DNA of 60,963 nucleotides, taken from positions 1 through 60,963 of the forward strand of contig CAJXYT010000002.1 in NCBI GenBank assembly GCA_913063505.1, in the 5' to 3' direction. This document shows positions 5,366 to 21,638 of this stretch, in pieces. Under the pieces are notes generated by a model, which did not search any database, was not told the DNA's origin, and saw only the letters and a program-made list of their open reading frames with translations. Both the position numbers and the translations under genes were made by a program. Source of the DNA: an uncultured Gammaproteobacteria bacterium. GTDB lineage: Bacteria; Pseudomonadota; Gammaproteobacteria; Steroidobacterales; Woeseiaceae. The stretch's first letter is position 1. Each line of letters starts with the position of its first letter.

Positions 5366-5376
5366 GGGAATTCCTC

Positions 5377-6426: not shown

Positions 6427-7955
6427 GCTGCTTGTTCTTTGCCACCGTTCATCAAAATACCGACAGTCTCCTCGTCAGCGTCCTCGCGGGTCAGAATCTG
6501 CATGATGCGGCCCGAGTAGATGACTGCAATCCGGTCAGCGAGCGCGAATATCTCGGAAAGTTCGGACGAGATAAGAAGGATACCATTTCCCTTATCCGCA
6601 GCCGAGAGGACCTCGGAGTAGACGAATTCCGATGCGCCGATATCGAGGCCGCGTGTTGGCTGACTGACCAGCAAGACCTTGGGGTCACGGGCAAATTCGC
6701 GTGCTAGTACGACCTTTTGCATGTTACCACCAGACAGCGAGCCCACGGCAAGGCCGGGCTTGGCTCCACGAATATCGAACTGCTCGATCCCCTTTTGGGT
6801 GAACTCAGCCAGCCGACCCTTATCCACGAAACCACGCCACAAAATGCCTTCCCTCAGGTAATTCGTCGCCGCCATATTTTCGGCGATGCTCATGTTACGG
6901 CTCAGGCCCCGGTCCAGCCTATCTTCGGGGACGAAACCCAGCCCAGCCTCTTGGCGCTCTGCGACGGATGCATTGTTGATATCCGCACCATCCAGCCGGA
7001 TCGTGCCAGCTTGAATCGGGATTAGGCCCGCTATCGCCTCGGCTAGTTCGGTCTGTCCGTTACCGTCCACGCCAGCTACCCCCAGCACCTCTCCGGCGCG
7101 CACGTCCAAATTGATGCCGTCCAACAGAAGCCGCCCGTCGGAATTGGTGATGCTGACGTTTTCAAGTTGCAACACGTTGTTACCGAACGTGCGTACACCT
7201 TGGCCCTGACGACCCATCAGAAAGACGTCCCTGCCGACCATATCCCGGGCGATATCATTCTCGGTCACGATTTTGGTGATATGTGTCGAGATGTTTTTAC
7301 CGCGCCGCAGAATCGTTACCCGGTCAGAGACCGCTTTTACTTCACGCAGTTTATGAGTAATGAAAAGAACGGTCCGCCCACGATCACGCAGGTTAGTAAT
7401 GACTTTAAGGAGTTCTTCGACCTCGGGCGGCGTCAGCACGGCTGTTGGCTCGTCCAGAATCAAAAGCTCCGCGTCGAACACCAGCGCCTTGAGGATTTCT
7501 ACCCGCTGCCGTTGCCCTACCGACAGCGTGCTTACGATTGCCTCGGGATCGAGGGCGAAACTGTAAGTGTCAATAAGAGTGCCCGCGCGCTCCACCATAG
7601 CGCGGCGATCCGAGAAAATTCCAAAGCGGCGCAGGTGATGGCCAAGAAACAGGTTTTCTGCAACGCTCATCGACGGCACCAGCGTAAAATGCTGGTGCAC
7701 CATGCCAATGCCCATATCGCCAGCGGCCAGAGGATCGCGGATCGTCGTTTCCTTACCGTTAAATGTGATTTTGCCACCATCAGGAGCGTGGATGCCAACC
7801 AGAATGTTCATAAGCGTGGATTTGCCCGCGCCATTTTCGCCGCACACCACATGAACTTCGCCGCGCCGGACTGACAGGTCGACATGCTCCAGCGCGACGA
7901 TGTCACCGAACTGTTTGGCGATACCGTCGAGCACAAGAATATTGTCATGATCCAT
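6423..7955 (-). CDS. ABC transporter ATP-binding protein, BMP-type nucleoside importer
   Basis: A 510-residue protein with two fused ABC domains, as usual for sugar and nucleoside importers of the RbsA/NupO type. The first domain has Walker A GENGAGKST (about residues 39-47), signature LSVGQRQR and Walker B LLILDEPTAVL. The second has a degenerate Walker A (GVDGNGQTE) and signature LSGGNMQK, an asymmetry normal for this family. It energises the two permeases encoded next. A 78-base gap separates it from the binding-protein gene. Confidence 0.9.
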   Translation of the reverse strand: MDHDNILVLDGIAKQFGDIVALEHVDLSVRRGEVHVVCGENGAGKSTLMNILVGIHAPDGGKITFNGKETTIRDPLAAGDMGIGMVHQHFTLVPSMSVAENLFLGHHLRRFGIFSDRRAMVERAGTLIDTYSFALDPEAIVSTLSVGQRQRVEILKALVFDAELLILDEPTAVLTPPEVEELLKVITNLRDRGRTVLFITHKLREVKAVSDRVTILRRGKNISTHITKIVTENDIARDMVGRDVFLMGRQGQGVRTFGNNVLQLENVSITNSDGRLLLDGINLDVRAGEVLGVAGVDGNGQTELAEAIAGLIPIQAGTIRLDGADINNASVAERQEAGLGFVPEDRLDRGLSRNMSIAENMAATNYLREGILWRGFVDKGRLAEFTQKGIEQFDIRGAKPGLAVGSLSGGNMQKVVLAREFARDPKVLLVSQPTRGLDIGASEFVYSEVLSAADKGNGILLISSELSEIFALADRIAVIYSGRIMQILTREDADEETVGILMNGGKEQAA

Positions 7956-8033
7956 CGTGAAGCACCTGTTTTCGTTAGTGTACCTTCTCTAAGGTGGCGG
8001 CCGACCTGCAGGGCCTCCCATCATTCTTAGTAA

Positions 8034-9029
8034 TCAGAAAGCTGAGTCGACCTCGATCTTGCCACTGGTGACTTTCGCCTCAGCCGCCTCTATCTTTGCC
8101 TTCACCTGTTCGGGAATGATCGTATTATTGTAGATCAGCGCGACCCCCTCATCTTCCAGACCAAAGACCTTAATTGTGCCGAACTCGGCTTCGCCCGCTT
8201 TGATCTGCTCAATCGAGTTGTAGATCGAATTGCCGATCTGCTTGACCATGGACGCAAGCACGTTGTCGGGGTGGATGCCGTTCTGATTGGAATCCACGCC
8301 GATGGCATACTTGTCTGAATCTGCCGCAGCCTTAAGGGTGCCCAGCCCAGCAGGGCCCGCCACGTTATAAATGACATTGGCGCCGTTCTCGATGGCGGTG
8401 CGGGTCAGGTCATAGGCCTTTTGAGCGTCATTGAAGTTACCGATGAAAATAATCTGAATCTCGATGTCCGGCACCATGGTGGTGGCACCCTGTTTAAAGC
8501 CGAGAATGAAGTCCTGAATGATTGGCAGGTCCATACCTGCGACGATGGCGATTTTCGATTTACCTGATGACAGCGGGAAGTTTTCGGTGTCTGTCGCGGC
8601 GACCGCTGCAAGCGTACCTGCGAGATACGATCCTTCATTCTGAGCATATTTGATTGAAAGAACATTTGGCTCGGTCAGTTCATCATCAAAGAAGACGTAC
8701 ATCTGATCTGGGTTTTTCGGTGCGACTTCAGCCAGATTGTCGTGCATGTTGGGGCCGGTAAAGATCACGTCCCAATTGCCCGAGTTCGAGACGGCCTCAA
8801 GGTTTTGACGCCACAGCTGCGGGTCGGTGGGCGATGCCTGAAGCAGGCGGGCTTTTACACCTTCCTCTTCGACGCGCGCGAAACCTATTGCAGCGTTGTC
8901 GTTAAAGCCCATATCGCCGAGATTATCACTCATCACATAGACGGCGCTGAAATCATCCTGCGAAAATGTGGGCCCCGATATTAGCGTGGCGGCGATCGCA
9001 AAACTGCTTAAAATATGTCTCATCTTCAT
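8034..9029 (-). CDS. BMP-family substrate-binding protein of a nucleoside ABC importer
   Basis: A 331-residue exported protein with an N-terminal signal peptide (basic MKMRH, hydrophobic core, likely cleavage near GPTFSQ-DD). No lipobox cysteine is seen, so it is probably a free periplasmic protein. The body has the BMP/Med fold signature DMGFNDNAAIGF near residues 38-49 and a C-terminal IIPEQVKAKI stretch. BMP proteins of this type bind purine or other nucleosides for ABC import. It is the first gene of the operon, with AGGAG seven bases before the ATG and a candidate operator dyad about 55-75 bases upstream. Usual family length. Confidence 0.9.
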   Translation of the reverse strand: MKMRHILSSFAIAATLISGPTFSQDDFSAVYVMSDNLGDMGFNDNAAIGFARVEEEGVKARLLQASPTDPQLWRQNLEAVSNSGNWDVIFTGPNMHDNLAEVAPKNPDQMYVFFDDELTEPNVLSIKYAQNEGSYLAGTLAAVAATDTENFPLSSGKSKIAIVAGMDLPIIQDFILGFKQGATTMVPDIEIQIIFIGNFNDAQKAYDLTRTAIENGANVIYNVAGPAGLGTLKAAADSDKYAIGVDSNQNGIHPDNVLASMVKQIGNSIYNSIEQIKAGEAEFGTIKVFGLEDEGVALIYNNTIIPEQVKAKIEAAEAKVTSGKIEVDSAF

Positions 9030-9208: not shown

Positions 9209-11959
9209 CTACTTTGATTTAATGGCCGCCAACAATCGATCTGGGCTCGCCGGCAGATTACGGATCACCGCGCCGGTTGCATACCGGATGGCGTTCAGAA
9301 TCGCTGGCGCAGTTCCGACAAGCACATGCTCACCCAAACCTTTAGCACCGTAAGGCCCATGTGGGTCCGCCTCTTCGATAAATAGCGTTTCGATCTCCGG
9401 CACATCACCGGCAGTCGGAATCAGGTAATCGTGGAGATTGTTGGTCTTTCCAGGTACAAATTCTTCCATTAATGCCATTCCGATACCCTGCGCAATACCA
9501 CCGTGAACCTGACCTTCCGCAAGTACAGGGTTTATGACTTTCCCAACATCGTGGGCGGCGGTGACTTTCATTAGCTTGGTGACTCCTAGTGCAATATCTA
9601 CGGACAATTCAACCATCTGTGCTCCGTAGCCAAATGAAGCATAAGGTTCTCCCTGACCATCCTTATCGAGGGGCTGTGTCGGAGGATCGTATGTCTCTTC
9701 AGCCGTCGCAATGAAGCCATCTTGATCAGCCGGCAATCGATCAAGCTGTACCGTCCACGTACTATTTTCCACAGAGGCAAGCAGTGTATTTCCATTCAGT
9801 TGTAAGCGGGCCGATAGTGGCGCATCGCATATTGTGAGCAACTTATTTCGCAATACGCTCCCAGCCAGAAATGCGGCCTTACCCGAAATAAATGTTTGCC
9901 TTGATGCCGACGTTTTTCCGGCATCCGCTGTTAGGTCAGTATCGCCATAAACTAAATCGAAGCAATCAATCGAAATTCCTATGGCATCTGCGCAAATCTG
10001 GCTAATAACCGTGTTTGATCCCTGGCCGATATCGACCGCCCCCTGAAACAAAACGATACGCCCATCGTCTCGTAATCCCACCCGTATAGTCGATGGGTTG
10101 GGCAATGATGTATTGCCACATCCGTACCACAAACCCGCAATGCCAACACCGAAACGCATTGGAGTGCCCTGAGCTGATTCGTTGCGCATCTCAGCGTTAC
10201 GAATTGCCTGCTGCCAGTGTGGCCGCAATGCTTCAAAGCACGCGACAATGCCGACGCCTCTATCAAAGCGTTGTCCCGTTACCGTTGGCAATCCGTTCGC
10301 AAGCGCATTGCGAACCCGAAATTCGAGCGGATCAATCGCCAATTGCTCGGCGAGAAGGTCAAACAGTGTTTCCTGTGCAACAGCAGATTGCGGTACGCCG
10401 AATCCTCGAAAGGCACCCGCTGGAGGGCAATGTGTATGTATTGCAGCAGATTCGGCGCGGTAGTTTTCAATACGATATGGCCCGCACGCATGAATCGGCA
10501 CACGGTTGGCAACCGTTGGCCCCCAGGATGCATAGGCGCCGGTATTGAACATACCGGCGAACGTCATCGCTGTAATCTTGCCGTCTTTGCTAGCACCGAT
10601 CCTGGACTGAATACTGGATGGGTGGCGCTTTGTCGTCGACAACATCGATTCGGTGCGTGAATACACCATCTTTACCGGTTGCTTCAAATGCCACGCGGCT
10701 ATCGCCACAAACGGTTGCAACGACAGATCCAATTTGGAGCCGAAGCCCCCACCTACTGATGATGGAATAATTCGGACCTGGTTTTTCGAAATGCCCATAA
10801 TCTCGGCCAGACTGTCCCTATCCATATACGGCGCCTGTGTGCAGGCCCATACTTCGATGCGCTCGCCGACGCGTCGCGCGAAACCCGCTTCGGGTTCAAT
10901 GTAGGCGTGCTCGATAAACCCGGTTGTGAAAGTGCCTTCCACCACGACGTCAGCAGCCTCGAAACCGGATTCAACGTCGCCGCTTTCCACATATCCACCG
11001 GTCAAACGATTATTCGCCCGCCCGATATGTAGCTGCGGCGCACGTTCATCGGCAGCCTCAGTTACGGTTGTGACGTCTGTTAGCTTTTGCCACGTTATTG
11101 GCAGATTCGAGATATCCAGAGTAATGATGTCGTCGGCAGTACCGACAACAAGTGCTACGGCTTCACCCTCAAACCGTGTTTCGGATTCGGCGAAAACCGG
11201 CTGGTCGATAAATTCCGGAATGACGCCAAAGCAATTCCGACCCGGAACATCCTTGGCCGTAAATACGGCGACTACCCCATCTGTTTCGTTTACGTACTCG
11301 TCAAGATCTCCGAACGAAAAGGCGGCGTGCGGATAAGGACTGCGAATCGCTCTTGCAAGTAAGGCGTCGTCTGGCCAGTCGTCGGCTGCAAAAAGGTCCG
11401 AACCAGCGACTTTCGGTGCTCCATCCAAGCGGATGATCGGCACACCAACCGAGTTGGCTCTCTGACCAGGATACGACGCTGGCGCTTCTTCCTGCACATT
11501 CGCGTTGACGATGGCGCGAATAATATTGCGATACCCGGTGCAGCGACACAACACTCCGCCAATAGCATTTTCCACTTGCTGCTCACTGGGGTGTGGCGTA
11601 CGTCGTAGTAATGCCTCGGCCACAACTATCATGCCAGGCGTGCATATCCCACATTGAGCAGCGCCGTGTCGCAAGAAAGATTGTTGAAGGTTCCCTTTTG
11701 CAACGCTGCGTCCACTTTGCAGCCCTTCGACGGTTTCAATATTGCAGCCATCAGCCTGTTGTGCAGCCATCATGCAGGCGCAAACGGGCTTATTATCGAC
11801 TAAAATTGTGCAGGCGCCACAGTCACCTGCATTGCAACCAATTTTAGTACCGGTAAGCCCCAGCTCTTCTCGTAACACCCGCGAAAATCGCGTGCCTGCG
11901 ATTGTGCTAACGCTGACTGGTTCGCCGTTGAGTTCAAAGTTGATCTTTGAGGTGCTCAT
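9209..11959 (-). CDS. Molybdenum hydroxylase, fused [2Fe-2S] and Moco-binding subunit (nicotinate dehydrogenase-like)
   Basis: A 916-residue xanthine-oxidase-family protein that unites two subunits usually encoded apart. Residues 1-75 carry a plant-type [2Fe-2S] site (C42, C47, C50, C62). Residues about 100-145 carry the second [2Fe-2S] site (C103, C106, C138, C140). The remainder is the molybdopterin domain, with GGGFGSK, GAFRGFG, GQGSN and a terminal GAKGLGEH holding the expected catalytic Glu. This fused layout resembles the Desulfovibrio gigas aldehyde oxidoreductase. I place the start at 11959 because that ATG overlaps the TGA of the FAD subunit; a longer frame to 12115 only reads into that gene. 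Context with 6-hydroxynicotinate reductase and enamidase suggests hydroxylation of nicotinate or a similar heterocycle. The exact substrate is inference. Confidence 0.85.
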   Translation of the reverse strand: MSTSKINFELNGEPVSVSTIAGTRFSRVLREELGLTGTKIGCNAGDCGACTILVDNKPVCACMMAAQQADGCNIETVEGLQSGRSVAKGNLQQSFLRHGAAQCGICTPGMIVVAEALLRRTPHPSEQQVENAIGGVLCRCTGYRNIIRAIVNANVQEEAPASYPGQRANSVGVPIIRLDGAPKVAGSDLFAADDWPDDALLARAIRSPYPHAAFSFGDLDEYVNETDGVVAVFTAKDVPGRNCFGVIPEFIDQPVFAESETRFEGEAVALVVGTADDIITLDISNLPITWQKLTDVTTVTEAADERAPQLHIGRANNRLTGGYVESGDVESGFEAADVVVEGTFTTGFIEHAYIEPEAGFARRVGERIEVWACTQAPYMDRDSLAEIMGISKNQVRIIPSSVGGGFGSKLDLSLQPFVAIAAWHLKQPVKMVYSRTESMLSTTKRHPSSIQSRIGASKDGKITAMTFAGMFNTGAYASWGPTVANRVPIHACGPYRIENYRAESAAIHTHCPPAGAFRGFGVPQSAVAQETLFDLLAEQLAIDPLEFRVRNALANGLPTVTGQRFDRGVGIVACFEALRPHWQQAIRNAEMRNESAQGTPMRFGVGIAGLWYGCGNTSLPNPSTIRVGLRDDGRIVLFQGAVDIGQGSNTVISQICADAIGISIDCFDLVYGDTDLTADAGKTSASRQTFISGKAAFLAGSVLRNKLLTICDAPLSARLQLNGNTLLASVENSTWTVQLDRLPADQDGFIATAEETYDPPTQPLDKDGQGEPYASFGYGAQMVELSVDIALGVTKLMKVTAAHDVGKVINPVLAEGQVHGGIAQGIGMALMEEFVPGKTNNLHDYLIPTAGDVPEIETLFIEEADPHGPYGAKGLGEHVLVGTAPAILNAIRYATGAVIRNLPASPDRLLAAIKSK

Positions 11960-12804
11960 CTCAGAGCATCTACGCATAAAAGAATCGCTCGTCGTACCAA
12001 TTCCGCCGTGGCCTCCAATCGATACTGACCACTGGAGCGAATATCGTCGATTGGCGATAGCGGCGCAAAGAATTTTGTCGCATGCGGCAGGCGGCTCATT
12101 TGTCGCAATTGGCATCCTTTTAGCTCGGCTTCCAGGTCACGTAAGCGACACGCGACCGCCGAACATGATCCTACGCTTATACTGATATTTTCAATCGAAT
12201 CATCGCTGCCCGGCTCAAGTACCACAGCAACCATAGAAATTGAAATAACCAGATATTTTCGTGAGCCGAGTTTTAGGAATGAACTTACGCTACGTTCGTC
12301 AGACTTAGGGACTAGCACTGCAGACATCAATTCTGTCCCAGCCAGTACGGTCTGTCGTGGTCCAGTAATAAAGTCTTTCAAATTCACGACCCGCCGACCG
12401 TTAGCCGACGACAACTCCACGCTGGCATTCAATGCCATTAAGGGAGGCACACCATCTGCCGCAGGCGATGCATTGCACAAATTACCAGCAATTGTGCCAG
12501 CGTTCTGAATTTGGATTCCTCCCACTTCGCAGGCCGCTAATTTCAGACAATCAAACGATTTGGGTAAATTTGCGGCCAGCACATCAGACCATGTTGAGGA
12601 TGCCCCGATTCGCCAGTGGTCTCCTACATCTTTAATGCCAGTTAAGTCCGGAATTGCTGTTACGTCGAGAACGTGGCCCAAACTATTGTGATCGCCCAAG
12701 GCGGCATAGACATCGGTGCCACCGGCAAGTACTTGCCGAGGACTTTGATCGAGGAGTGCTAGTGCTTCATCGAGGTTATTGGGACGCTCGTAACTTTGTT
12801 GCAC
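11956..12804 (-). CDS. FAD-binding subunit of the molybdenum hydroxylase
   Basis: A 282-residue protein of the CoxM/XdhB flavoprotein family. The FAD motifs are visible: VLAGGTDVYA near residues 25-34 and the NAGTIAGNLCNASPAADG stretch near 101-118. It passes electrons from the iron-sulphur centres of the fused Moco subunit to an acceptor. No CO-dehydrogenase-type insertion is seen and the length is normal. Its TGA overlaps the ATG of the Moco subunit by 4 bases, and 10 bases separate it from the amidohydrolase gene, so the two subunits are made together. Confidence 0.88.
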   Translation of the reverse strand: MQQSYERPNNLDEALALLDQSPRQVLAGGTDVYAALGDHNSLGHVLDVTAIPDLTGIKDVGDHWRIGASSTWSDVLAANLPKSFDCLKLAACEVGGIQIQNAGTIAGNLCNASPAADGVPPLMALNASVELSSANGRRVVNLKDFITGPRQTVLAGTELMSAVLVPKSDERSVSSFLKLGSRKYLVISISMVAVVLEPGSDDSIENISISVGSCSAVACRLRDLEAELKGCQLRQMSRLPHATKFFAPLSPIDDIRSSGQYRLEATAELVRRAILLCVDALR

Positions 12805-12814
12805 GACTTACCCT

Positions 12815-14008
12815 TTATATCTCTAGACTAGCTAGCGTTTCAGCGGGCGGCGTATTTCGTGAGCGTCGGCAACGAACGACACCATCAATGATGACCATAC
12901 TGATACCGGGTAAATCGCCTAACGCCACACTATCGAGAAGCGTATCACCGGCAGAATGCTGAGCACGATCCATGATGACAAAATCGCCTACACGACCGAT
13001 TTCGATCAAGCCACAATTGAGCTCCCTAATCCGAGCGGTGTTGCCTGTCGCAAAACAGAACACAGTCTCCGGTGCTACGTTGCCCATCGAACTAAGCATT
13101 GCGATTAGTCGCAGGATTCCGAGTGGTTGAACTCCAGAACCAGCCGGTGAGTCCGTTCCCAGACTGATGCGCTCAGCCTGATCGAGCTCGATCGTCGTGC
13201 GCATCGCATACAGCCCAGCAACTTCATTACCATTGTGCACAATCTCGACAGCTCTCGTACAGGACTCACAAAGACATCGAATCTGATCAATCGGTAGGGC
13301 TGTAGGCCCACCATTTATGTGTCCGATGACATCGGCATCGGCTTCAAGAACAACGTCCGCATCGATAAGACTGGAGCCCGGAATCGAAGGGCCGCCAGTA
13401 TGAATGGTACTTTGAATACCGTATTTTCGTGCCCAGGCAACCATTTGTTTAGCTTCTGCACCACTCTTGACGCCGCCCAGTCCTACTTCGCCGAGCAACT
13501 TTACGCCGGCGTCCGCCAATTCTTTGAAGTCATGTTCCTCCATACCTTGTTCGAGGATCGGCGCTCCAGCATGCACTTTGACACCGCCCGGTCTGTGTAT
13601 TGAAAAAGAGCGTTGTGCGGTAATGGCCATCGCTTTCAGGCCAACAATATCTTTGGGGCGGCCGGGCAAATGAACTTCACCAGCTGAAATCATTGTCGTA
13701 ACCCCGCCATTGAGATAGCTGTCAATCCAGCCAGTCTGGTTTTGCCGCGGCGTCCAGTCGCCGACCACAGGATGCACATGACTATCAATTAATCCCGGTG
13801 CAACGCAGGTTCCGTTTGCGTTGACAACTCTATCAGCGTTCTCAGTATTGAGCTCTGAGTAGCGACCAATATCGGCGATTACACCATCAACGACGATAAT
13901 CGTATCCGCATCCAAAATTGGCTGCGCCAAATCACCCGATAGTAATAATCCAATACCCCGGACCACAAGCTTACCTTGCGAATTTGTTTGTCCTTGAAAT
14001 GACTCCAT
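12815..14008 (-). CDS. Enamidase-like metal-dependent amidohydrolase
   Basis: A 397-residue cytoplasmic amidohydrolase. The metal-binding DSHVHP motif sits near residues 75-80, further metal-region motifs IHTGGP and GHING come later, and LGTDSPAG follows. The product resembles enamidase of Eubacterium barkeri, which hydrolyses 1,4,5,6-tetrahydro-6-oxonicotinate to 2-formylglutarate and ammonia. A 6-hydroxynicotinate reductase gene in the same operon strongly supports that reaction here, but a related cyclic amide is possible. It lies between the hydroxylase genes and the PF06684 pair, with short gaps on both sides (10 and 28 bases). Confidence 0.75.
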   Translation of the reverse strand: MESFQGQTNSQGKLVVRGIGLLLSGDLAQPILDADTIIVVDGVIADIGRYSELNTENADRVVNANGTCVAPGLIDSHVHPVVGDWTPRQNQTGWIDSYLNGGVTTMISAGEVHLPGRPKDIVGLKAMAITAQRSFSIHRPGGVKVHAGAPILEQGMEEHDFKELADAGVKLLGEVGLGGVKSGAEAKQMVAWARKYGIQSTIHTGGPSIPGSSLIDADVVLEADADVIGHINGGPTALPIDQIRCLCESCTRAVEIVHNGNEVAGLYAMRTTIELDQAERISLGTDSPAGSGVQPLGILRLIAMLSSMGNVAPETVFCFATGNTARIRELNCGLIEIGRVGDFVIMDRAQHSAGDTLLDSVALGDLPGISMVIIDGVVRCRRSRNTPPAETLASLEI

Positions 14009-14036
14009 GCTTTCCTAGTTTCCCGTTTGAGTGTTT

Positions 14037-14621
14037 CTAGCGAAGCTCATCTTTTCCAGCCGCATCTGCGTGTGTTAGTCCGCCAACGCGAGGAAGCGGT
14101 CGACCGCTGTCCGTCACGGCAACCGCAACTAAAATTTCATTAGTCCTGGGACCATCGTGTAGGCGTACCTCCATTGCATCAAAGTGGCTGCGAACATTAG
14201 CAGCATCTTTGTGCCCGAGTGGAACATCAATTGATGTTCCAGCTCCCCCCATTTTTTTTGACGACGGAATCAGCGCAGCGCCTTGTTGTACGGCAGAACG
14301 TAGTGGTTTTCCAAGGCGCGGATGCAGGATCGCTGCGGCATGTTCCAGCTCCCCACCGGCACCAACGATAGCGGCCTTGCCATAGCTCTCAATTTCCGAC
14401 GGTGGCACTCCCAATGCAGCAACGGCTCGACGACCGAGGAGATCACCCAGTTCTGCACCGATTCGCATCAAAACCTCGAGGTCTTCGACAAATTTCCCTG
14501 CACAGGGATTATCGACTACCGCGAATGCCACAGCCTTTCGGGTCACTGGATTGACCGCGCGATCCATCTCCCGGCAGGTTTCCTCAACAATAACCAGAAT
14601 CTTTCGGATATTCGCATTCAT
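14037..14621 (-). CDS. PF06684 (DUF1185, amino acid synthesis family) protein, copy 2
   Basis: A 194-residue protein of the family named amino acid synthesis (PF06684, formerly DUF1185). The first crystal structures showed a variant of the chorismate mutase fold; no reaction has been established that I know of. Family features are the IRKILVIVEE N-terminus, the VDNPCAGKFVEDLE motif near residues 36-49 and GKAAIVGAGGELEHAAA near 80-96. The ATG overlaps the TGA of the preceding paralogue. The paralogues are clearly related along their length but diverged, so a heteromer is plausible. Membership of the operon suggests a role in handling ring-cleavage products or stabilising a pathway intermediate. 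Confidence 0.8.
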   Translation of the reverse strand: MNANIRKILVIVEETCREMDRAVNPVTRKAVAFAVVDNPCAGKFVEDLEVLMRIGAELGDLLGRRAVAALGVPPSEIESYGKAAIVGAGGELEHAAAILHPRLGKPLRSAVQQGAALIPSSKKMGGAGTSIDVPLGHKDAANVRSHFDAMEVRLHDGPRTNEILVAVAVTDSGRPLPRVGGLTHADAAGKDELR

Positions 14622-15199
14622 CGCAAACCATCCTCACCGAGAATATCGTTTGCTTGCAAACCACCCATTCGTGCATGAATACGGGAACCGGTCGCCATAG
14701 CCAAACAAAGTACCAGTTCGTCTGGTCTGGGCGCATCGGGTACTTGCAGTGGTAATGTATGAAAATGACTTCGCACATATGCAGCGTTGGTGTGCGCCAG
14801 CGGAATGTCGATTGTCGTGCCGACCGCCCCAACCTTCTTTGTGGACGGAACAATAGCCCGTGTGTCGCCAAGTATCTGACGCATACCGTAACCACCTGGC
14901 GTATGCCAGAGCGCGCCATGCTCGAGTTCGCCATTGGCGCCAATAATGCTGCCTTTGCCATACGCCTCGATGTCGCCAGGCTCACAACCCATCGCTTCCA
15001 ATAATTCGCCCGCAAGTTGGAGACCCAGCGGCTCTAGATCCTTCATGGCAGGCTCCAGGACTTCGACATATCGGCCTGCGAACGGGTTACTTACTACTCC
15101 ACAGATACCACCTAGAATTAACGGTACACTTTTAGGTGGACCGAAATCGTGACTTGAGCGATCTAATGTAATAACGATTTTTCGCACAGTAAAACTCAC
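14618..15199 (-). CDS. PF06684 (DUF1185, amino acid synthesis family) protein, copy 1
   Basis: A 193-residue paralogue of the next gene. It has the shared motifs VSNPFAGRYVEVLEP near residues 36-50, YGKGSIIGANGELEHGA and a C-terminal ARMGGLQAND matching RVGGLTHADA in the other copy. The GTG start at 15199 shares a base with the stop of the UPF0280 gene. Two adjacent PF06684 genes in a 6-hydroxynicotinate reductase operon suggest two subunits or two steps. Function is unknown; the cluster makes a catabolic role more likely than the biosynthetic one implied by the family name. Confidence 0.8.
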   Translation of the reverse strand: MSFTVRKIVITLDRSSHDFGPPKSVPLILGGICGVVSNPFAGRYVEVLEPAMKDLEPLGLQLAGELLEAMGCEPGDIEAYGKGSIIGANGELEHGALWHTPGGYGMRQILGDTRAIVPSTKKVGAVGTTIDIPLAHTNAAYVRSHFHTLPLQVPDAPRPDELVLCLAMATGSRIHARMGGLQANDILGEDGLR

Positions 15200-16113
15200 T
15201 ACGTATCTACTCCTTTATGTTCATATGGCCAGCCTAGCGAACGACTATGTCCTTGCAGGTAAATGAAGACACCGTAAAGCTCGCACTTCTTTATCAAGGT
15301 TCGGGCGAATTTCGCACCGCGATCAAGAGCGTCATCAATTGCTTTTTTGTGCAACGCACCTACATTCACAGTGACCAGCCTTTCTCCGAGATCACTGTCG
15401 GGATCAATGTCCAGCGCTCGACTCCGATCGATGCATTCAGCATCACAATCGACTTTATTCGCGATTAACGTCGCTACCGTATCAGCAATCGCCGCATTTT
15501 TTGCGAGAACAGTTACGGCATCGGCAATACCCAGCGACATTGAATGGCCGTCCCAGCCGCTGGTCGCGATTCCACATACACCATCCTCGCCAGCGATCTC
15601 CACTGATGCACCCAGTGTTGCCGTCGAGAGGAAAGGTACAATACCAATGCGCATTTTCTGGCCGGGCTCGAGGTGCAGAGCGATATCGCCGCCGTTATTA
15701 ACAAAAACGCTATCCAAGCCGTCGGCATTTTTCATCGCAGCTAGAACCTCATCCGCGACTGCACCGGCGACAGCCGCCATGGGTGTGACGAAGCAGTCTC
15801 TGAATTGTCTGACGGTTGAAACCATGCGCTGCGACGTAGCGTCATTTATCTTTGTATTGTCTGCAATGAAAAGGGGTGATCGCAACAATGAAAGGTTGTC
15901 CACCAGTCCCTGCAGCATTCCTTCCATACGTTGTGCTGCAAGCGCATACGCCTGCTGCACACCCGCAGTGCTGCCAATCGCCTTGATAACGAGGTTGATT
16001 GGCCCGTGTTGCAAATGCAGACGATTGCCGGATAGCATTACCTGCTGCACCTGTGCAGGCAGCCGTGATTGAACCGCAGCATCGGGTGGACCGCAAAGTG
16101 CACTCGAATTCAT
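15199..16113 (-). CDS. UPF0280 family protein (ApbE-superfamily-like)
   Basis: A 304-residue protein matching UPF0280, a family distantly related to the flavin transferase ApbE. Typical elements are FVTPMAAVAGAVADEVLAAM near residues 110-130, VNNGGDIAL near 140-150 and the GIATSG...GHSMSLGIADAVTV region in the second half. The start is taken as ATG at 16113; a TTG six bases upstream is the only longer option. It follows the reductase gene with a gap of a few bases. Its biochemical role is not established. Because ApbE relatives attach FMN to partner proteins, it could mature the neighbouring reductase, but no signal peptide or flavinylation target motif is evident, so this is speculation. Confidence 0.75.
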   Translation of the reverse strand: MNSSALCGPPDAAVQSRLPAQVQQVMLSGNRLHLQHGPINLVIKAIGSTAGVQQAYALAAQRMEGMLQGLVDNLSLLRSPLFIADNTKINDATSQRMVSTVRQFRDCFVTPMAAVAGAVADEVLAAMKNADGLDSVFVNNGGDIALHLEPGQKMRIGIVPFLSTATLGASVEIAGEDGVCGIATSGWDGHSMSLGIADAVTVLAKNAAIADTVATLIANKVDCDAECIDRSRALDIDPDSDLGERLVTVNVGALHKKAIDDALDRGAKFARTLIKKCELYGVFIYLQGHSRSLGWPYEHKGVDT

Positions 16114-16120
16114 GAGCAAA

Positions 16121-17653
16121 TCACTTCAGCGGCCATGGGTTCTTGGGGTCCCAGCTACTGCTCTGGGCACTGTCGCCGTAGTGATCGCGAATGTCCTCCA
16201 GTGACTGAATATAATCGACGTGACCACCCATTGCAGTGTATTGGTCTCTCGGTAACGTAAATTCTATTGGCGCTACTATTGCTGGTGTCGGTACATAACC
16301 GAAAGAGCTTTCCGGCATACGCGTGACATCGACCATGACCGTGATGCCACCACCAGGCCACACATAAACTGGCGCACCGCCCATCGTCACCCGCGTCAAC
16401 GTCTCTTTGACAGATCGGGTCAGGCTCACCGGATTCTCGGTGACGCCAGCCCGCAACGATCCGCCCGCGCCAGCAACAAATAACACTGAGCATAGTGAGG
16501 GCTCGCAGTTTTCCCGAATACGGTCCACGACACTTTGCACCGCATCCGGCATCACTGTCTCCACTGGCTGCAAGTTGTCATCGAGGACGCAATAGATGCT
16601 TTCATCGCCCGTTGTGGTGGTCATCAATAGCCGACTTCCTGGGCGTGCAACACCATCATCGATTGACTCGATAATAGAAAATGGGTCGCTGATATCTGTG
16701 CCACCCCAGCCCTGCCCGGAATTGGCAACACTGAAGTATCTGCCGGGCGTTGAGCGCCGTCCACATACGCGAATCCCGGAGGGCGCCATTCCAAGACAAC
16801 GTCCGGCCTGATGCTCCGACAGAACCCCGGTAATATGTTCGTCAATGACAATGACTTCGTCGACATGGCCATGCCACTGCTTCGCGAAGATACCAATTGT
16901 TGCCGAGCCACAACCAACACGCATACGCTGTTCGGTAACGCCATCGATGACGGGCGCACGTCCTGCCTGCACCAGCACCGTACAGCCTCCTGCAACGACA
17001 AGTTCGACTGGCTGACGGTTGCACAACGCCATAATGGTATTGCAGGTAACCTTACCCTCTCGTTTGCTACCGCCCGTGAGGTGATTGACCCCTCCAACGG
17101 ACAACATCTGCGACCCATACTCGCCGGTCGTCACATGCCCAATGCGCTGCCCATCGCAAAGGATATCGGCTTGTTCAGCGCCGAGGTGCTTATCCGTATC
17201 TAGTTTGATCTTCACGCCGCAATACGAAAAGATACTCTCACTGACCACTGTGACAGTCTCAACGCCGTTGTACTGTGTCGCTACAATAAATGGTGCCGGC
17301 TTGTAGTCCGGATAAGTTGTACCTGCACCGATAGCGGTAACGAACGTTTCTTGTTGAACCAAGCTGCCATCCCATTCGGCCGCAGCGCCCTCAAACGGGA
17401 CGACCCCGCCGCCGGGAGAGCGCGATTTTTCGAGAAGTACCAGTGGATCAACACGCGCGAGTTCGCCTTCGACGTTCGCATAACGCCCGCAAGCGCCGGA
17501 CCGCTCTGGTCTGATTCGGCAAAGCACTGGGCAAGCATCACAACGTACTATGCCGTCCTTTTCGCGCGCGCCAAAGCGTTCGGTCATTCCGGGAAAACCA
17601 GTTGATTTGCTCGACTTCTTGTCGGTGCTGGATTTGATCGTTTCAGTCGCCAT
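16121..17653 (-). CDS. hnr: 6-hydroxynicotinate reductase-like iron-sulphur protein
   Basis: A 510-residue protein matching the family of 6-hydroxynicotinate reductase (Hnr), which in Eubacterium barkeri reduces 6-hydroxynicotinate to 1,4,5,6-tetrahydro-6-oxonicotinate with reduced ferredoxin (EC 1.3.7.1). An N-terminal cysteine cluster C-x2-C-x3-C-x8-C near residues 39-56 (starting RCDACPVLC) fits an Fe-S site, and the central part has many glycine-rich stretches. It is the first gene of a seven-gene minus-strand operon ending with the Mo hydroxylase. A ferredoxin and ferredoxin-NADP reductase lie 3-4 kb away on the same strand. The promoter region is shared with the divergent symporter genes. 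Substrate identity is inferred from enamidase in the same operon. Confidence 0.75.
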   Translation of the reverse strand: MATETIKSSTDKKSSKSTGFPGMTERFGAREKDGIVRCDACPVLCRIRPERSGACGRYANVEGELARVDPLVLLEKSRSPGGGVVPFEGAAAEWDGSLVQQETFVTAIGAGTTYPDYKPAPFIVATQYNGVETVTVVSESIFSYCGVKIKLDTDKHLGAEQADILCDGQRIGHVTTGEYGSQMLSVGGVNHLTGGSKREGKVTCNTIMALCNRQPVELVVAGGCTVLVQAGRAPVIDGVTEQRMRVGCGSATIGIFAKQWHGHVDEVIVIDEHITGVLSEHQAGRCLGMAPSGIRVCGRRSTPGRYFSVANSGQGWGGTDISDPFSIIESIDDGVARPGSRLLMTTTTGDESIYCVLDDNLQPVETVMPDAVQSVVDRIRENCEPSLCSVLFVAGAGGSLRAGVTENPVSLTRSVKETLTRVTMGGAPVYVWPGGGITVMVDVTRMPESSFGYVPTPAIVAPIEFTLPRDQYTAMGGHVDYIQSLEDIRDHYGDSAQSSSWDPKNPWPLK

Positions 17654-17679
17654 TATGGACTCATAGACTTACATAATAA

Positions 17680-17691
17680 TAAGTATACATA
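17680..17691. promoter_or_regulatory. Candidate MarR operator before the reductase operon
   Basis: TAAGTATACATA is a near-perfect 12-base dyad lying 27 bases before the reductase start. A closely similar string, TAGGTACACATA, sits 40 bases before the ferredoxin reductase gene (21678-21689). A MarR gene is in the same locus, so a shared operator is plausible. The evidence is two similar sites only. Confidence 0.3.
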
Positions 17692-17875
17692 TAGAAAAAA
17701 CAAACATACCAGTACATGACCGTTCAGCAAGCGCTGAAGGCTTGTACCAGCCATTCCCTCAGATACTCTGGAAAGTACTATTTAATTGCATTATTGTAGG
17801 TATGCAATAGAAATACGTCGGGACATCAATGACGGGCGAGCGCAAGACTAATTCAGAATCGGGATATTCACGAGC

Positions 17876-18118
17876 ATGAATTCCAAATCTAACATACACC
17901 ACCATCGACCATTCTGGTGGCGTGTTTGCTGTGGTGGTGTGATAGCACTTTCTGTCGTAACTTTTACGCCATTTGTTATTGGCGGCCACGCATCTCGTAT
18001 TTTGCACCTTCCGTACTCGTTAGCGGCCGGTCTCATTATTGCACTCGCGTTCATCGCGCTAACAATTGCCGGCTCCTTCTTGTATCCAAAACCTCTTGGT
18101 CGCGGCGACAACAAATGA
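17876..18118 (+). CDS. Small membrane protein, symporter accessory subunit (DUF485/DUF3311-like)
   Basis: An 80-residue protein with two hydrophobic segments (about residues 18-35 and 44-68), ending in a basic tail. Small two-helix proteins of this kind are commonly encoded directly before sodium:solute symporters and are thought to assist them. Its TGA overlaps the ATG of the symporter gene (ATGA at 18115-18118), which supports a functional pair. The histidine-rich N-terminus (HHHRPFWWR) is unusual but typical of such cytoplasmic starts. The domain name is recalled, not searched. Confidence 0.65.
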   Translation: MNSKSNIHHHRPFWWRVCCGGVIALSVVTFTPFVIGGHASRILHLPYSLAAGLIIALAFIALTIAGSFLYPKPLGRGDNK

Positions 18119-19533
18119 ATGGATGGATATTGGGGATTGGCAGTGTATATCTCTGCACGTTGATTGCTGCCGCCTTGCGCGCTCGCAAATCGAACCATTC
18201 AGACAACGATTTTCTCATGGCAGGATCGAATCTCGGGGCGCTTGTCGGCTGCTTAACGGTCGCCGCTACACTATTTAGCACATTTACATTGATGGGGATG
18301 CCAGACCTGTTTCGTAATCACGGTATTGGTGCTTGGATCTTTCTTGGGGTTTCTGACTGCGCGTTGGCATTTGTTGCTTTGTGGTTCGGTGTCAATATCC
18401 GCCGCCGAATATCGGCAGATGACTTTAATGGATTTTCCGGCTGGCTCGGGCAAAAATACCGTGGTCGTCATGCGACGTACGTCTACTTGTTTGGCATCTT
18501 TGTCTTCCTAATCCCCTATGTCGCGATTCAGATAAAGGGAGTTTCACTGTTCTTGAATTCGATAATTCCGAGTGTCATGCCAAGCTGGGCGTGGTCGGTC
18601 GCGATAGTCGGTGTGATCCTCGCCTACAGTGAACTGGGTGGGCTTAAAGCCATAATTTTCGCAGACTCAATTCAAGGTGTGGTGTTGTTTGGGGCCACTA
18701 TTATTATTGCAAGCAGTTGCGTGTCCTATTTCGGCGGTATTGGCCCCATGTTTGATTCGATCGAATCGACGTCGCCAGCACTCTTGTCAATTCCCGGGCC
18801 GTCTGGATTGTTCACCTATCAATTTCTTATAGCGTCATTTTTGGCCATCGCAATGATCCCGGTGACACAGCCACAAATGGGTACCCGTTTGATTATTATG
18901 CGTGACAGCTCGTCGCTCGCTCGAATGGCGGTGCTGCTCGCTCTATTCTCTTTCGTTCTCGTACTCGCAACACTACCCATTGGCCTTTACGGCGCCGCGC
19001 TCTATCCCACGAGTGCGACCGGTGAATTTATAGCGCAGGTCTTGGTATACGATCAGTCACCGATTGTCGCTGCGGTGGTTGTAGTTGGACTAATCGCAGC
19101 CGCAATCTCAACAGCAGATTCGCAACTGTTCGCGCTGGGTAGCGAGCTGCGTTCAGGTATATCCAAGCCACAATATCGATCGCTGGCGTTGGTGCGCAGC
19201 GCAATCGTCGTATTCGCCTTGTCAGCGCTGGTAGTGTCACTAGTGAGTAATACAAATATCGTTCTATTGGCACGAACCAGTTTTGCTGGAACGGCATTGC
19301 TAGCACCCATGATACTGTCGGCTGTGTTTTTTCCGAAGCAACTGCATCGCCTTATTCCGCTACTGACTGGCCTGGGTTTGATCGCATTCCTCGCATCTAT
19401 TTTCGGCTTGACGGGTGATGCTGTTTGGGGGCTGCGCATGGACCTCCTGATATTCATAGTGGTTGCGCTTGGCACCGCAATAATCCTTATGTTCAGCAAT
19501 CACTACCTGCCCGATGAGCGAAAAATCATATGA
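18115..19533 (+). CDS. Sodium:solute symporter (SSS family)
   Basis: A 472-residue transporter with about 13 hydrophobic segments and the SSS-type features DNDFLMAGSNLG near residue 30, YSELGGLKAIIFADSIQG in the middle and AAAISTADSQLFALGSE in the second half. The start at 18115 follows from the ATGA overlap with the small accessory gene; a longer frame begins inside that gene out of its own frame. The pair is divergent from the N-heterocycle operon and shares its upstream region, so it probably imports the pathway's substrate (nicotinate or a related acid) with sodium. Substrate is inference. Confidence 0.85.
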   Translation: MNGWILGIGSVYLCTLIAAALRARKSNHSDNDFLMAGSNLGALVGCLTVAATLFSTFTLMGMPDLFRNHGIGAWIFLGVSDCALAFVALWFGVNIRRRISADDFNGFSGWLGQKYRGRHATYVYLFGIFVFLIPYVAIQIKGVSLFLNSIIPSVMPSWAWSVAIVGVILAYSELGGLKAIIFADSIQGVVLFGATIIIASSCVSYFGGIGPMFDSIESTSPALLSIPGPSGLFTYQFLIASFLAIAMIPVTQPQMGTRLIIMRDSSSLARMAVLLALFSFVLVLATLPIGLYGAALYPTSATGEFIAQVLVYDQSPIVAAVVVVGLIAAAISTADSQLFALGSELRSGISKPQYRSLALVRSAIVVFALSALVVSLVSNTNIVLLARTSFAGTALLAPMILSAVFFPKQLHRLIPLLTGLGLIAFLASIFGLTGDAVWGLRMDLLIFIVVALGTAIILMFSNHYLPDERKII

Positions 19534-19715
19534 GGGCTTGTTCGTAGTTGAGTTGGCAAAATTACTCGGCGCGCGGCAGTATTCTGGGTATTCGCACGCC
19601 GATCGTTTTCTCGGATTCCGTCATGGATTGCTGTCGTCCTTCACCGCGCCTTGATGAACATCACGTGGAAATTTTCGAAGAACTATACGGACCAGATTCC
19701 AAACTAGATTCGTAA
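19514..19715 (+). pseudogene. Remnant of a CaiB/BaiF CoA-transferase with the middle deleted
   Basis: Both ends of a CoA-transferase gene survive within about 200 bases. The frame from ATG 19514 reads MSEKSYEGLFVVELAKLLGA, the usual start of CaiB/BaiF proteins. In another frame, from about 19575 to the stop at 19713-19715, it reads GSILGIRTPIVFSDS and then RPSPRLDEHHVEIF, the characteristic C-terminus. The normal protein is near 400 residues, so around 1 kb is missing and the frame is lost. The ATG overlaps the end of the symporter gene by 20 bases, so the intact gene was probably the third gene of that unit. A CoA-transferase would fit activation of a dicarboxylate from ring cleavage; that is inference. 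Confidence 0.7.
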
Positions 19716-19732
19716 GCGGATTCGGTTAACGT

Positions 19733-20266
19733 CTAGGTTAATCGCGCCAGCAAACGTAAAAAAATCTCTTGCTCATCCACGGACAACGGCGCAAGTGTTT
19801 CGCTGGATACCTGGCGAGCCGCAGTCTCCAGCGACTCGATTAACTTGAGTCCCTTGGCAGTCAAGATTAGTGCGGATTTTCGTTTATCGGCCGGATCCGT
19901 CGTTTTTTGAATCAATTGGCGCTGAACCAGGCGATTCACAATACCCATGATTGTTGCAGGGTCCGTATGCGTGCGCCGACCAAGGAGATTTTGCGATACA
20001 CAACCTTCATCGCGAATTTTCACCAACGATGTAAATTGCATTGGAGTTAGTCCGCTATCCGTAAGAAGAGCTTGAAAAATGCCACCTGATCGTTGGTGGG
20101 CGCGCCGCAGAAGAAACCCGGCTTGTTGTTCGATCGCGTACAACTGATCATCTGCCGTTACAGCTAGCGATGATTTCTCGCCGCCATCTTCTTTTCTACT
20201 TGACGTAGATTTGGTCATTTTCTTGCGCCATTCAAATAGGTGCCTCGCATGCCGTAGGTCTAGCAT
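19733..20266 (-). CDS. MarR-family transcriptional regulator
   Basis: A 177-residue regulator with a winged-helix core: GLTPMQFTSLVKI (helix 2 region, about residues 90-102), the recognition region LLGRRTHTDPATIMGIVNRLV and the wing TTDPADKRKSALILTAKG. MarR proteins usually repress catabolic genes until an aromatic acid binds, and MarR regulators (NicR type) control nicotinate degradation in other proteobacteria. The start is uncertain: ATG 20266 gives the longest product, but an internal ATG at 20218 (MTKSTSSRK) is closer to usual family length. It lies between the symporter unit and the ferredoxin gene and is the likely local regulator. Confidence 0.85.
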   Translation of the reverse strand: MLDLRHARHLFEWRKKMTKSTSSRKEDGGEKSSLAVTADDQLYAIEQQAGFLLRRAHQRSGGIFQALLTDSGLTPMQFTSLVKIRDEGCVSQNLLGRRTHTDPATIMGIVNRLVQRQLIQKTTDPADKRKSALILTAKGLKLIESLETAARQVSSETLAPLSVDEQEIFLRLLARLT

Positions 20267-20358
20267 ATCCGCTTCTGTTATAGGGCGATTGGCTATTGAA
20301 GTAATGTTGCCCTATTCGAGCACGAACGCAGTGGGAAAGTTATTTCTGAGAGACTGCG

Positions 20359-20700
20359 CTAGTCTGTATTGCCGGGTTTTTCACTAAAGTAGCGATCAAA
20401 CTTGTCTTTTTCATCTCGATACTCATCGGCATCGGCCGGTGAAACTCCTTTTCGTGTGATGTTTGGCCAGATTTCAGAGTACTTCGTATTTACACCCAAC
20501 CAGAATTGTTCCGGCGTATCCTCATCGTCCGGTTTGATCGCCTCGAGTGGACACTCGGGCTCGCAGATCCCGCAGTCGATACACTCTTCGGGATGAATAA
20601 CTAAAAAGTTGTCACCCTCATAGAAGCAATCAACCGGGCATACCTCCACACAATCCATTAATTTGCACTTCACACATGCATCGGTAACGATAAAAGTCAC
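20359..20700 (-). CDS. fdxA: Ferredoxin FdxA, 7Fe type
   Basis: A 113-residue ferredoxin with the Azotobacter-type arrangement. N-terminal cysteines C9, C12, C17 and C21 ([13 protein letters not shown]) and the second cluster [12 protein letters not shown] near residues 40-51 should bind one [3Fe-4S] and one [4Fe-4S] cluster. The long acidic C-terminal extension (about residues 58-113) is normal for FdxA. It lies 89 bases after the ferredoxin-NADP reductase gene on the same strand. In this locus it is the obvious electron donor for the ferredoxin-dependent 6-hydroxynicotinate reductase; it could equally be a housekeeping ferredoxin. Confidence 0.92.
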
Positions 20701-20789
20701 GCAAATCTCCTCAAAAAAAATGACTGATTCGCAACCGCAGTCTATACGACATTACGGCACCGATCAGGCAGTCACGAAACTCTCTAACG

Positions 20790-21638
20790 TCAGCCGACGA
20801 AAGCTCGCTCAATTACAAAACTCCCCGGGGCAGAATTACTGCCTTCTTTAAGCCCATGCTCCTCAAGCATGGAAGCCATATCTTTATTGAATGCCATAGA
20901 ACCGCAAACCATCACCCTGGCGGTTTGCGGGTTAAATCGATTTCCAACCAACCCCAAATCTTTCGCGAAATCACCAAGCTGTATGCGCTCGGTAATTCTG
21001 CCCCGCGTCTTGAACTCGCCACGCGTAACCGTTGGATAGTAAGTAAATCGATCTCGTAACAGCTCTCCAAAGATCTCATCGGCATGAATCTCTTCTTCTA
21101 GGAAGTTGCGGTAGGCAAGTTCCTGCTCTTCCCTCACAGTATGCGTGATAATAATCTCGTCGAACTTTTCGTGCGTTTCCGTATCGCGTAAAACAGAAAG
21201 AAACGGAGCCAACCCGGTACCGGTTCCGATCATGAATAGACGTTGCCCGGGCCTGAGCGCATCCGTAACCAGTGTGCCGGTTGGCTTCTTACTTAGGAAC
21301 ATATAGTCGCCAACTTTCAGATGCTGCAAGCGGGAAGTTAGGGGCCCTTCCGGCACCTTAACTGAGAAAAATTCGAGGTGCTCCTCCCAGTTAGGGCTCA
21401 CGATAGAGTAAGCCCTTAATAATGGGCGATCGCCATCTTTTAGCCCAATCATCACGAACTCACCAGAGCGAAAGCGAAAACTATCTGGGCGCTCAATCCG
21501 AAAACTAAACAAGCCATTTGTCCAGTGGTGTACCCAGGTGACCCGCTGTAGGAACAGCTTTTTGGCCTCGGCCATGGCCTGTAACTCCGGCAATGTTGCC
21601 GATCCTACGGTTTTTTCTTGATTCATCCCAATACCCAC
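20790..21638 (-). CDS. fpr: Ferredoxin--NADP(+) reductase
   Basis: A 282-residue FAD enzyme that moves electrons between NADPH and ferredoxin. FAD-binding RAYSIVSP (about residues 95-102) and GPLTSRLQ, the NADP-binding GTGTGLAPFLS near 156-166, VCGSMAFN and the terminal FVIERAFVG are all characteristic of the bacterial Fpr subclass. The GTG at 21638 has GAGG at suitable distance; an ATG 12 bases later is the alternative. It precedes fdxA on the same strand. The pair would give reduced ferredoxin for ring reduction under aerobic conditions. The upstream region has a dyad resembling the one before the reductase operon. Confidence 0.92.
   Translation of the reverse strand: MGIGMNQEKTVGSATLPELQAMAEAKKLFLQRVTWVHHWTNGLFSFRIERPDSFRFRSGEFVMIGLKDGDRPLLRAYSIVSPNWEEHLEFFSVKVPEGPLTSRLQHLKVGDYMFLSKKPTGTLVTDALRPGQRLFMIGTGTGLAPFLSVLRDTETHEKFDEIIITHTVREEQELAYRNFLEEEIHADEIFGELLRDRFTYYPTVTRGEFKTRGRITERIQLGDFAKDLGLVGNRFNPQTARVMVCGSMAFNKDMASMLEEHGLKEGSNSAPGSFVIERAFVG

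Follow-up and report, generated by a model that had tools for sequence, protein, structure and literature searches.

A probable reductive nicotinate degradation locus with linked ferredoxin and ferredoxin-NADP reductase genes in a Woeseiaceae gammaproteobacterium

How is a 6-hydroxynicotinate reductase (Hnr) supplied with electrons in bacteria other than the fermenter Eubacterium barkeri? In the open literature we found no description of this. The question is raised by a stretch of 60,963 nucleotides (contig CAJXYT010000002.1, positions 1 to 60,963; hereafter the window) from the 1.45 Mb draft genome, 90% complete, of an uncultured gammaproteobacterium of the family Woeseiaceae, in which a homologue of Hnr is encoded together with a molybdenum (Mo) hydroxylase and a homologue of enamidase (Ena), close to genes for a ferredoxin (FdxA) and a ferredoxin-NADP reductase (Fpr). 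We consider it probable that this locus serves reductive nicotinate degradation of the E. barkeri and Azorhizobium type and is fed by FdxA and Fpr. In such a pathway the Mo hydroxylase would convert nicotinate to 6-hydroxynicotinate, Hnr would reduce the latter to 1,4,5,6-tetrahydro-6-oxonicotinate with electrons from reduced FdxA, Fpr would refill FdxA from NADPH, and the enamidase would open the ring to give 2-formylglutarate and ammonia; a UPF0280 protein would help to fit the flavin of Hnr, and the steps past ring opening would be encoded elsewhere.

Identity of the operon and its substrate

All genes named in the original prediction for this DNA were recovered in place by Pfam and NCBIfam scans and by sequence comparison (Table 1). 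Read along the minus strand, the order starts with Fpr, FdxA and a MarR-type regulator; an SSF symporter, divergent and encoded on the plus strand, comes next, followed by Hnr, UPF0280, two PF06684 genes, the amidohydrolase, the FAD subunit and the fused FeS-Mo subunit. The prediction had let fdxA and fpr follow the operon on the same strand; the strand is right, but both genes lie 5′ of the operon and, with the divergent symporter and the MarR gene in between, probably belong to a separate transcription unit. It had also passed over three genes between the reductase and the hydrolase, namely UPF0280 and the two PF06684 genes. From Hnr to the Mo large subunit the start/stop junctions overlap or are short, and on this evidence the run is judged to be a real, tight operon.

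The window reductase appears to be a 6-hydroxynicotinate reductase homologue, an assignment anchored indirectly via the literature and the annotation of homologues. Its best-segment identity to 48 homologues ranges from 57 to 95%, several of these are deposited under the name '6-hydroxynicotinate reductase', and the Hnr homologue of the Bradyrhizobiaceae strain SG-6C is given as 42% identical to E. barkeri Hnr in PMC3511419. Hnr falls into neither a Pfam nor an NCBIfam family, sequence comparison with the PDB gave no credible relative, and its AlphaFold model (pLDDT 70, middling) gave no Foldseek match at E 0.001 or better and no credible fold match with VIA-align (best Z 4.7 over 65 residues). 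An N-terminal C-x2-C-x3-C-x9-C motif (C38, C41, C45 and C55) is present, and Cys 145, 248 and 383 are also invariant. The N-terminal CxxCPxxC...GxC motif of Hnr recurs in a putative AmmeMemoRadiSam-type radical SAM protein at L054:1495-2610 (L and G numbers are our handles for loci and genomes). A weak Hnr match in G012, which by its sequence looks like the same motif in a protein of that type, was excluded from the counts. At L132:9143-10659 (G075), Hnr is split into two overlapping matches in different frames, through a frameshift or a sequence error.

For comparison, 398 genomes of the phylum were searched, of which 32, including the window's, have Hnr; linkage counts refer to the other 31 (G075 among them), whose sister clusters were viewed over about 9 kb on either side of Hnr, with one stretch shorter. 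Further loci came from a named set B (42 loci) and from plasmids (13 of 26 matches opened).

The amidohydrolase matches the solved enamidase of E. barkeri, 2VUN, at E 2e-109, whereas the next-best solved chain reaches E 6e-6; 177 of 383 aligned residues (46%) are identical, and H77, H79, E174, H203, H230 and D286, presumably the metal ligands of the amidohydrolase superfamily, are conserved. An enamidase of the E. barkeri-type pathway thus seems to be encoded. Homologues of at least 62% identity occur in 18 of the 398 genomes, and all 18, the window's included, are among the 32 with Hnr.

In the Mo large subunit (open reading frame 9209-12115), MoCoBD_1, MoCoBD_2 and Fer2_2 score above their Pfam cut-offs and Fer2 just under (20.8 bits, cut-off 21). 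Its start is most likely the ATG at 11959, which overlaps the stop of the FAD subunit and gives 916 rather than 968 residues; many homologues are 914-916 residues long. The middle part scores 292 bits with 3hrd_A versus 159 with the next enzyme, and the C-terminal part 198 bits with 3hrd_B versus 157, 3HRD being the nicotinate dehydrogenase of E. barkeri. With both Mo domains nearest to that enzyme, a nicotinate-hydroxylating Mo enzyme is the assignment to which the sequence points, and together with the enamidase match this bears out the nicotinate-type catabolic reading of the original prediction.

The sister clusters argue in the same direction. A Mo hydroxylase is present in 30/31, of the window type in 16 and of the NicAB type in 14, with none having both, and the exchange between the two requires at least four changes on the Hnr tree (84 rows, after removal of two short Hnr pieces and a duplicate). 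NicAB is a nicotinate hydroxylase known from Pseudomonas putida. The exchange argues that both enzymes carry out the same step, and together with the affinity of the Mo domains it makes nicotinate the likeliest substrate of the window enzyme. In the named loci outside this sample, a second, NicAB-like Mo hydroxylase lies close to a window-type one at L036, and L047 has NicAB plus a distant Mo match of 27%. The contig that carries the Mo hydroxylase also encodes, at 50985-53421, a ModABC-like transporter (SBP_bac_11, BPD_transp_1, and ABC_tran with TOBE), whose substrate would be molybdate.

Several observations speak against so specific an assignment. As a whole, the Mo chain scores best with fused aldehyde oxidoreductases (1sij, 358 bits), which is explained by 3HRD being split into chains; its FeS part scores 143 bits with quinoline 2-oxidoreductase versus 131 with nicotinate dehydrogenase, its best NCBIfam model is a selenium-dependent xanthine dehydrogenase, below the cut-off of that model, and the FAD subunit does not discriminate (4zoh_B, 92.5 bits; 3hrd_C of nicotinate dehydrogenase, 90.2 bits). 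Enamidase paralogues of 42-43% identity exist in two Hnr-free genomes, and since this is near the 46% to the E. barkeri enzyme, such identity alone is no proof of the reaction. No gene for the use of 2-formylglutarate was recognised among the scanned proteins of the window, the rest of the genome not having been searched. Finally, an importer and a nucleoside hydrolase lie nearby and could mean that another N-heterocycle is the substrate.

That the locus degrades such a compound by an equivalent sequence of hydroxylation, reduction and hydrolysis is an alternative that we regard as unlikely; examples would be another pyridine carboxylate, a nucleoside-derived base, or a methylated pyridine betaine, for instance trigonelline. 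The genes on which this alternative draws start 180 bases past the Mo subunit and run, likewise on the minus strand, as far as about 2733: a Bmp-type ABC importer (binding protein 8034-9029, ATPase 6423-7955, permeases 5377-6426 and 4463-5365), the nucleoside hydrolase and a PF07090 gene, all syntenic in G010 (92-98%). Importer types also differ between Hnr clusters, and near Hnr in 18/42 set-B and 4/13 plasmid loci, nearly all of them from Rhodobacterales, there is a gene for a Rieske protein whose C-terminal domain is vanillate O-demethylase-like (for example L044:16055-17122). Against this stand the hydrolase and both Mo domains, which are nearest to nicotinate-pathway enzymes, and the replacement of the hydroxylase by NicAB in sister clusters; in G007 the Mo subunit and the PF07090 gene are direct neighbours, with neither importer nor nucleoside hydrolase between them, and no Bmp gene was found in that genome; and a Rieske gene of the type in question is absent from the 31-genome sample. 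The importer, the nucleoside hydrolase and the PF07090 gene may have a part in obtaining nicotinate from nucleosides, or may have nothing to do with the pathway. A Rieske oxygenase of this kind could demethylate a methylated pyridine ahead of the pathway; homarine and trigonelline were considered as substrates on account of the Rhodobacterales genes and were set aside, literature searches having shown no link and the 31 genomes no such Rieske gene.

A possible electron supply by FdxA and Fpr

If nicotinate is degraded by this route, the reductase would have to be fed, and the locus appears to carry the means. FdxA passes the NCBIfam model FdxA_Protbact (157.3 bits, cut-off 135). Fpr gives near full-length matches to solved ferredoxin-NADP reductases (2bgi at E 2e-93, also 4k1x and 1a8p), of which 2bgi, the best solved relative, is an NADPH:ferredoxin reductase; at 125.9 bits it is below the cut-off (390) of the NCBIfam equivalog PRK10926 and is not that equivalog. 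Among 40 relatives (the window's genome, 24 others of its genus and 15 of its order), Hnr is present in four, G000, G006, G007 and G010. A FdxA of the locus type (86-100% identity) occurs in each of these, as against 0/36 of the others (p 1e-5), and all four carry in addition a general FdxA that is 60-64% identical to that of the window. An Fpr at least 88% identical to the window's is found in three of the four and in 0/36; any Fpr at all is present in five of the 36 Hnr-free relatives, all distant, and the two from the same genus are about 50% identical and fall outside the clade of the window's Fpr.

Linkage of Fpr to Hnr recurs well beyond the Woeseiaceae. The distance between Fpr and Hnr is at most 10 kb in 12 of these 31 genomes and at most 17 kb in 15, where naive random placement would give 0.14 and 0.24, respectively; Fpr is also near Hnr in 18/42 set-B loci (11/21 where 9 kb or more is available on each side) and in 7/13 plasmid loci. 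The genomes are not independent, as nine of the 31 belong to a single genus (g128), in which Fpr is linked within 17 kb in every genome and is present in two to three copies each. In the Fpr tree (62 rows; four short pieces and three duplicates left out, and six of the nine linked g128 copies included), these six form a clade apart from six sampled free copies of the genus. Linked Fprs do not make up one clade: the linked label needs seven changes, at least six of which are forced by well supported branches, so that Fpr must have joined, or left, Hnr clusters repeatedly, gains and losses not being separated. Its nearest neighbour in the clusters varies over several families and may be the enamidase, Hnr, NicB, HyuA, the FAD subunit, FdxA or MarR. 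Such repeated association points to function rather than shared descent.

Other observations weigh on the opposite side. No Fpr was detected in G007, a genome that is 64% complete, and the Woeseiaceae contig L004 has an Fpr fragment only and no FdxA. Among the 31 Hnr genomes, Fpr went undetected in two, and in 14 more it is at least 75 kb away or on another contig; Fpr thus cannot be the only electron route across the family. FdxA is linked to Hnr in just one of the 31 clusters outside the Woeseiaceae, that of G441, where a second FdxA-Fpr pair lies beside the enamidase. Of the recurrence of fdxA and fpr with the operon that was to be looked for, the Fpr part has therefore been borne out, whereas linkage of fdxA is lineage-specific, in Woeseiaceae and in one of the 31 others. 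As far as the two refuting conditions of the prediction (a reductase grouping with enzymes of another reaction, and no recurrence of fdxA/fpr with the operon) could be examined, neither went against it.

One could assume that fdxA and fpr are housekeeping or stress genes that lie near the operon by chance and do not feed Hnr. Their place beyond a divergent gene and a MarR gene would agree with this, as would the window's Fpr being the sole copy in its genome and Fpr being distant or absent in 16 of the 31 other Hnr genomes. Yet Fpr is no standing gene of Woeseiaceae, given its rarity in Hnr-free relatives and the separate place in the tree of the two same-genus copies, FdxA is a second copy restricted to Hnr genomes, and linkage recurs over several families with different gene orders; we consider this alternative quite unlikely. 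Another possibility is that the carrier for Hnr is a different ferredoxin or a flavodoxin, itself the partner of Fpr, while the linked FdxA has a regulatory or protective role. The disparity outside Woeseiaceae, with FdxA linked in one cluster and Fpr in up to 15, speaks for it; that fpr adjoins fdxA in Woeseiaceae and, independently, in G441 speaks against it, and on balance we think it improbable. The locus-specific FdxA copy and the recurrent linkage of Fpr thus support the original proposal that the locus has its own route from NADPH to ferredoxin, which would then run to Hnr.

Partner genes of Hnr and the ring opener

The most constant neighbour of Hnr is UPF0280, which lies within 0.5 kb in 31/31 clusters and is the next recognised gene in 30/31; a MarR-like match stands between the two at L115, and MarR-like genes are found near 27/31 Hnr clusters. 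The window protein passes the NCBIfam model NF003322 (315.6 bits, cut-off 290), which we take, from the annotation of plasmid homologues, to be UPF0280. It does not reach the gathering score of Pfam ApbE (PF02424; 19.8 versus 25.6 bits), and 7/27 UPF0280 homologues match ApbE at E 0.01 or better. The top PDB match of its predicted structure (pLDDT 88.8) is DVU1097, followed solely by ApbE, FmnB and Ftp entries to rank 39, with low TM-scores to these (0.28-0.42, by query length). Hnr of E. barkeri reportedly carries a covalent flavin and Fe-S clusters (Alhapel and co-workers, 2006), which makes a dedicated flavin transferase an economical guess for UPF0280; judging by its modelled fold, the protein is a candidate for attaching the covalent flavin of Hnr. 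An ApbE-type flavinylation motif was sought in Hnr itself, where the sole GSAT-like stretch (249-252) lacks its Thr in some homologues, and for that reason no flavinylation site is proposed.

PF06684 (AA_synth, DUF1185) is likewise present in 30/31 sister clusters. Both window proteins pass the Pfam gathering score (208.5 and 238.1 bits), and protein 2 is close to the solved 2qtp (E 4e-82), presumably the protein SPO0826. Chorismate-mutase-like folds resemble RidA proteins, and by analogy one may speculate that PF06684 proteins have a role in enamine handling. Such a fold is described for PF06684 in the SPO0826 study (PMC2954203), where a role in amino-acid metabolism is inferred partly from neighbouring branched-chain amino-acid transport genes. 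We did not follow this assignment, because similar transporters adjoin nicotinate-type genes in the present clusters; the neighbourhoods of SPO0826 and BB2672 were not inspected.

The ring opener is less constant. An enamidase gene occurs in 11/31 sister clusters and HyuA in 8/31, with both in none and neither in 12, HyuA having been sought in the fetched stretches around Hnr only. Enamidases of at least 62% identity are found in none of the eight genomes with Hnr-linked HyuA versus 17 of the 23 others (Fisher p 4e-4, kinship uncorrected), and no enamidase at E 1e-60 or better was found in those eight. In some Hnr clusters HyuAB (hydantoinase/oxoprolinase; examples are L048:17638-21431, L096:3513-7252 and L123) apparently stands in for the enamidase as ring opener, to judge from these gene contents; at L099, which with L036 and L047 makes up the three named loci labelled with both members of such a pair, an enamidase is accompanied by a HyuA match of just 41%. 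Close to the importer genes of several Hnr clusters there is also a 487-residue protein with no Pfam family (L048:6743-8206), of which nine other loci have a 35-46% identical match. A broader picture, offered tentatively and with more doubt than confidence, would be that proteobacterial Hnr is a portable module, with UPF0280 as its dedicated ApbE-like flavin transferase, with an NADPH-driven Fpr that was brought in repeatedly and is joined in some lineages by a FdxA of its own, with PF06684 proteins handling the enamine of ring opening, and with ATP-dependent HyuAB able to take the place of enamidase.

Neighbouring genes, known systems and significance

The SSF symporter is found in the same place in the window, in L002 (treated as equal to G010), L003 (treated as equal to G007) and L004, and in G006, and substrate uptake is a possible role; L002-L004, one gammaproteobacterial and two Woeseiaceae draft genomes, are the nearest named relatives with the same locus. 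For an enoyl-CoA hydratase-like gene at 28940-29653 of the contig, no connection to the locus is apparent. An open reading frame at 2024-2731 encodes a 235-residue alpha/beta hydrolase whose matches to hydrolase models are mainly N-terminal; its C-terminal end, GYASRTSLYKVF, resembles an AraC-type DNA-binding end and may reflect a fusion or a frame artefact. Scans of the window gave neither a tRNA nor an Rfam family reaching its gathering score, and promoter and terminator scans, whose signal was near shuffle level, were not used.

Table 1. Features of the locus and its surroundings (window coordinates)
Feature	Position	Strand	Basis or remark
Hnr homologue, 510 aa	16121..17653	-	homologue family annotation
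UPF0280, ApbE-like fold	15199..16119	-	NCBIfam NF003322; real start may be ATG 16113
AA_synth / DUF1185 (PF06684) protein 1	14618..15199	-	Pfam 208.5 bits
AA_synth / DUF1185 (PF06684) protein 2	14037..14621	-	Pfam 238.1 bits; 4-base overlap with gene 1
Enamidase (Ena) homologue	12815..14008	-	46% identity to E. barkeri enamidase
FAD subunit of Mo hydroxylase	11956..12804	-	Pfam FAD_binding_5, CO_deh_flav_C
Fused [2Fe-2S] and molybdopterin large subunit	9209..11959	-	ORF opens at 12115; ATG 11959 fits homologues
SSF sodium:solute symporter, divergent from Hnr	17917..19533	+	true start probably further in
MarR-type regulator	19733..20266	-	Pfam
FdxA ferredoxin, locus-specific second copy	20359..20700	-	NCBIfam FdxA_Protbact
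Fpr, ferredoxin-NADP reductase	20790..21638	-	sole copy detected in genome; solved relative 2bgi
Bmp-type ABC importer, four genes	4463..9029	-	pathway membership uncertain
Inosine-uridine-type nucleoside hydrolase (PF01156)	3507..4466	-	pathway membership uncertain
PF07090 putative glutamine amidotransferase-like protein	2733..3488	-	directly after Mo subunit in G007

The fermentation cluster of E. barkeri (nicotinate dehydrogenase, Hnr, enamidase) shares with the window homologues of its first enzymes, Hnr being placed there through the literature, and among solved structures its enzymes are the closest to the hydrolase and to both Mo domains. In the window, the FeS part and both Mo domains form one chain, whereas 3HRD has separate chains, and FdxA and Fpr, UPF0280 and the PF06684 genes are added at the locus; the E. 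barkeri cluster is not known to have UPF0280 and PF06684 genes. The sampled f64 genomes, whose layout is of the kind described for Azorhizobium and strain SG-6C, have NicAB, one PF06684 gene, and the enamidase and Fpr at one end, whereas the window has the fused Mo subunit, two PF06684 genes and, in addition, FdxA and the SSF symporter. The '6-hydroxynicotinate reductase' clusters of Sulfitobacter and other Rhodobacterales, like the window, combine a Mo hydroxylase, Hnr, UPF0280, a PF06684 pair, enamidase and ferredoxin-NADP reductase; they have another type of ABC importer and often a Rieske protein, and no linked FdxA was found in them. In the HyuAB clusters the Hnr-UPF0280-PF06684 core is kept, in most cases beside a Mo hydroxylase and in some with Fpr, the difference being the oxoprolinase-type cyclic amidase that apparently replaces the enamidase. 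According to PMC3511419, a nicotinate cluster has been described in Azorhizobium, Bradyrhizobium and Rhodopseudomonas, and strain SG-6C, which has the same cluster, degrades both nicotinate and 6-hydroxynicotinate when given them as its only source of carbon. To that extent the core of the pathway is not new. What is new is the evidence for an electron supply borne by the locus, the constant UPF0280 partner and the exchange of enamidase and HyuAB, three points of which we found no prior report in the open literature (subscription papers were outside the scope).

For the family, a repeatedly linked Fpr and a locus-specific ferredoxin offer a concrete, testable answer to the question of how Hnr obtains its electrons, and the constant ApbE-like neighbour makes the attachment of the reported covalent flavin to Hnr directly testable as well. 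UPF0280 and DUF1185, for which we found no established function in the literature, gain the context of a pathway. For the organism, it would follow, if the reading given here is true, that some Woeseiaceae can consume nicotinate.

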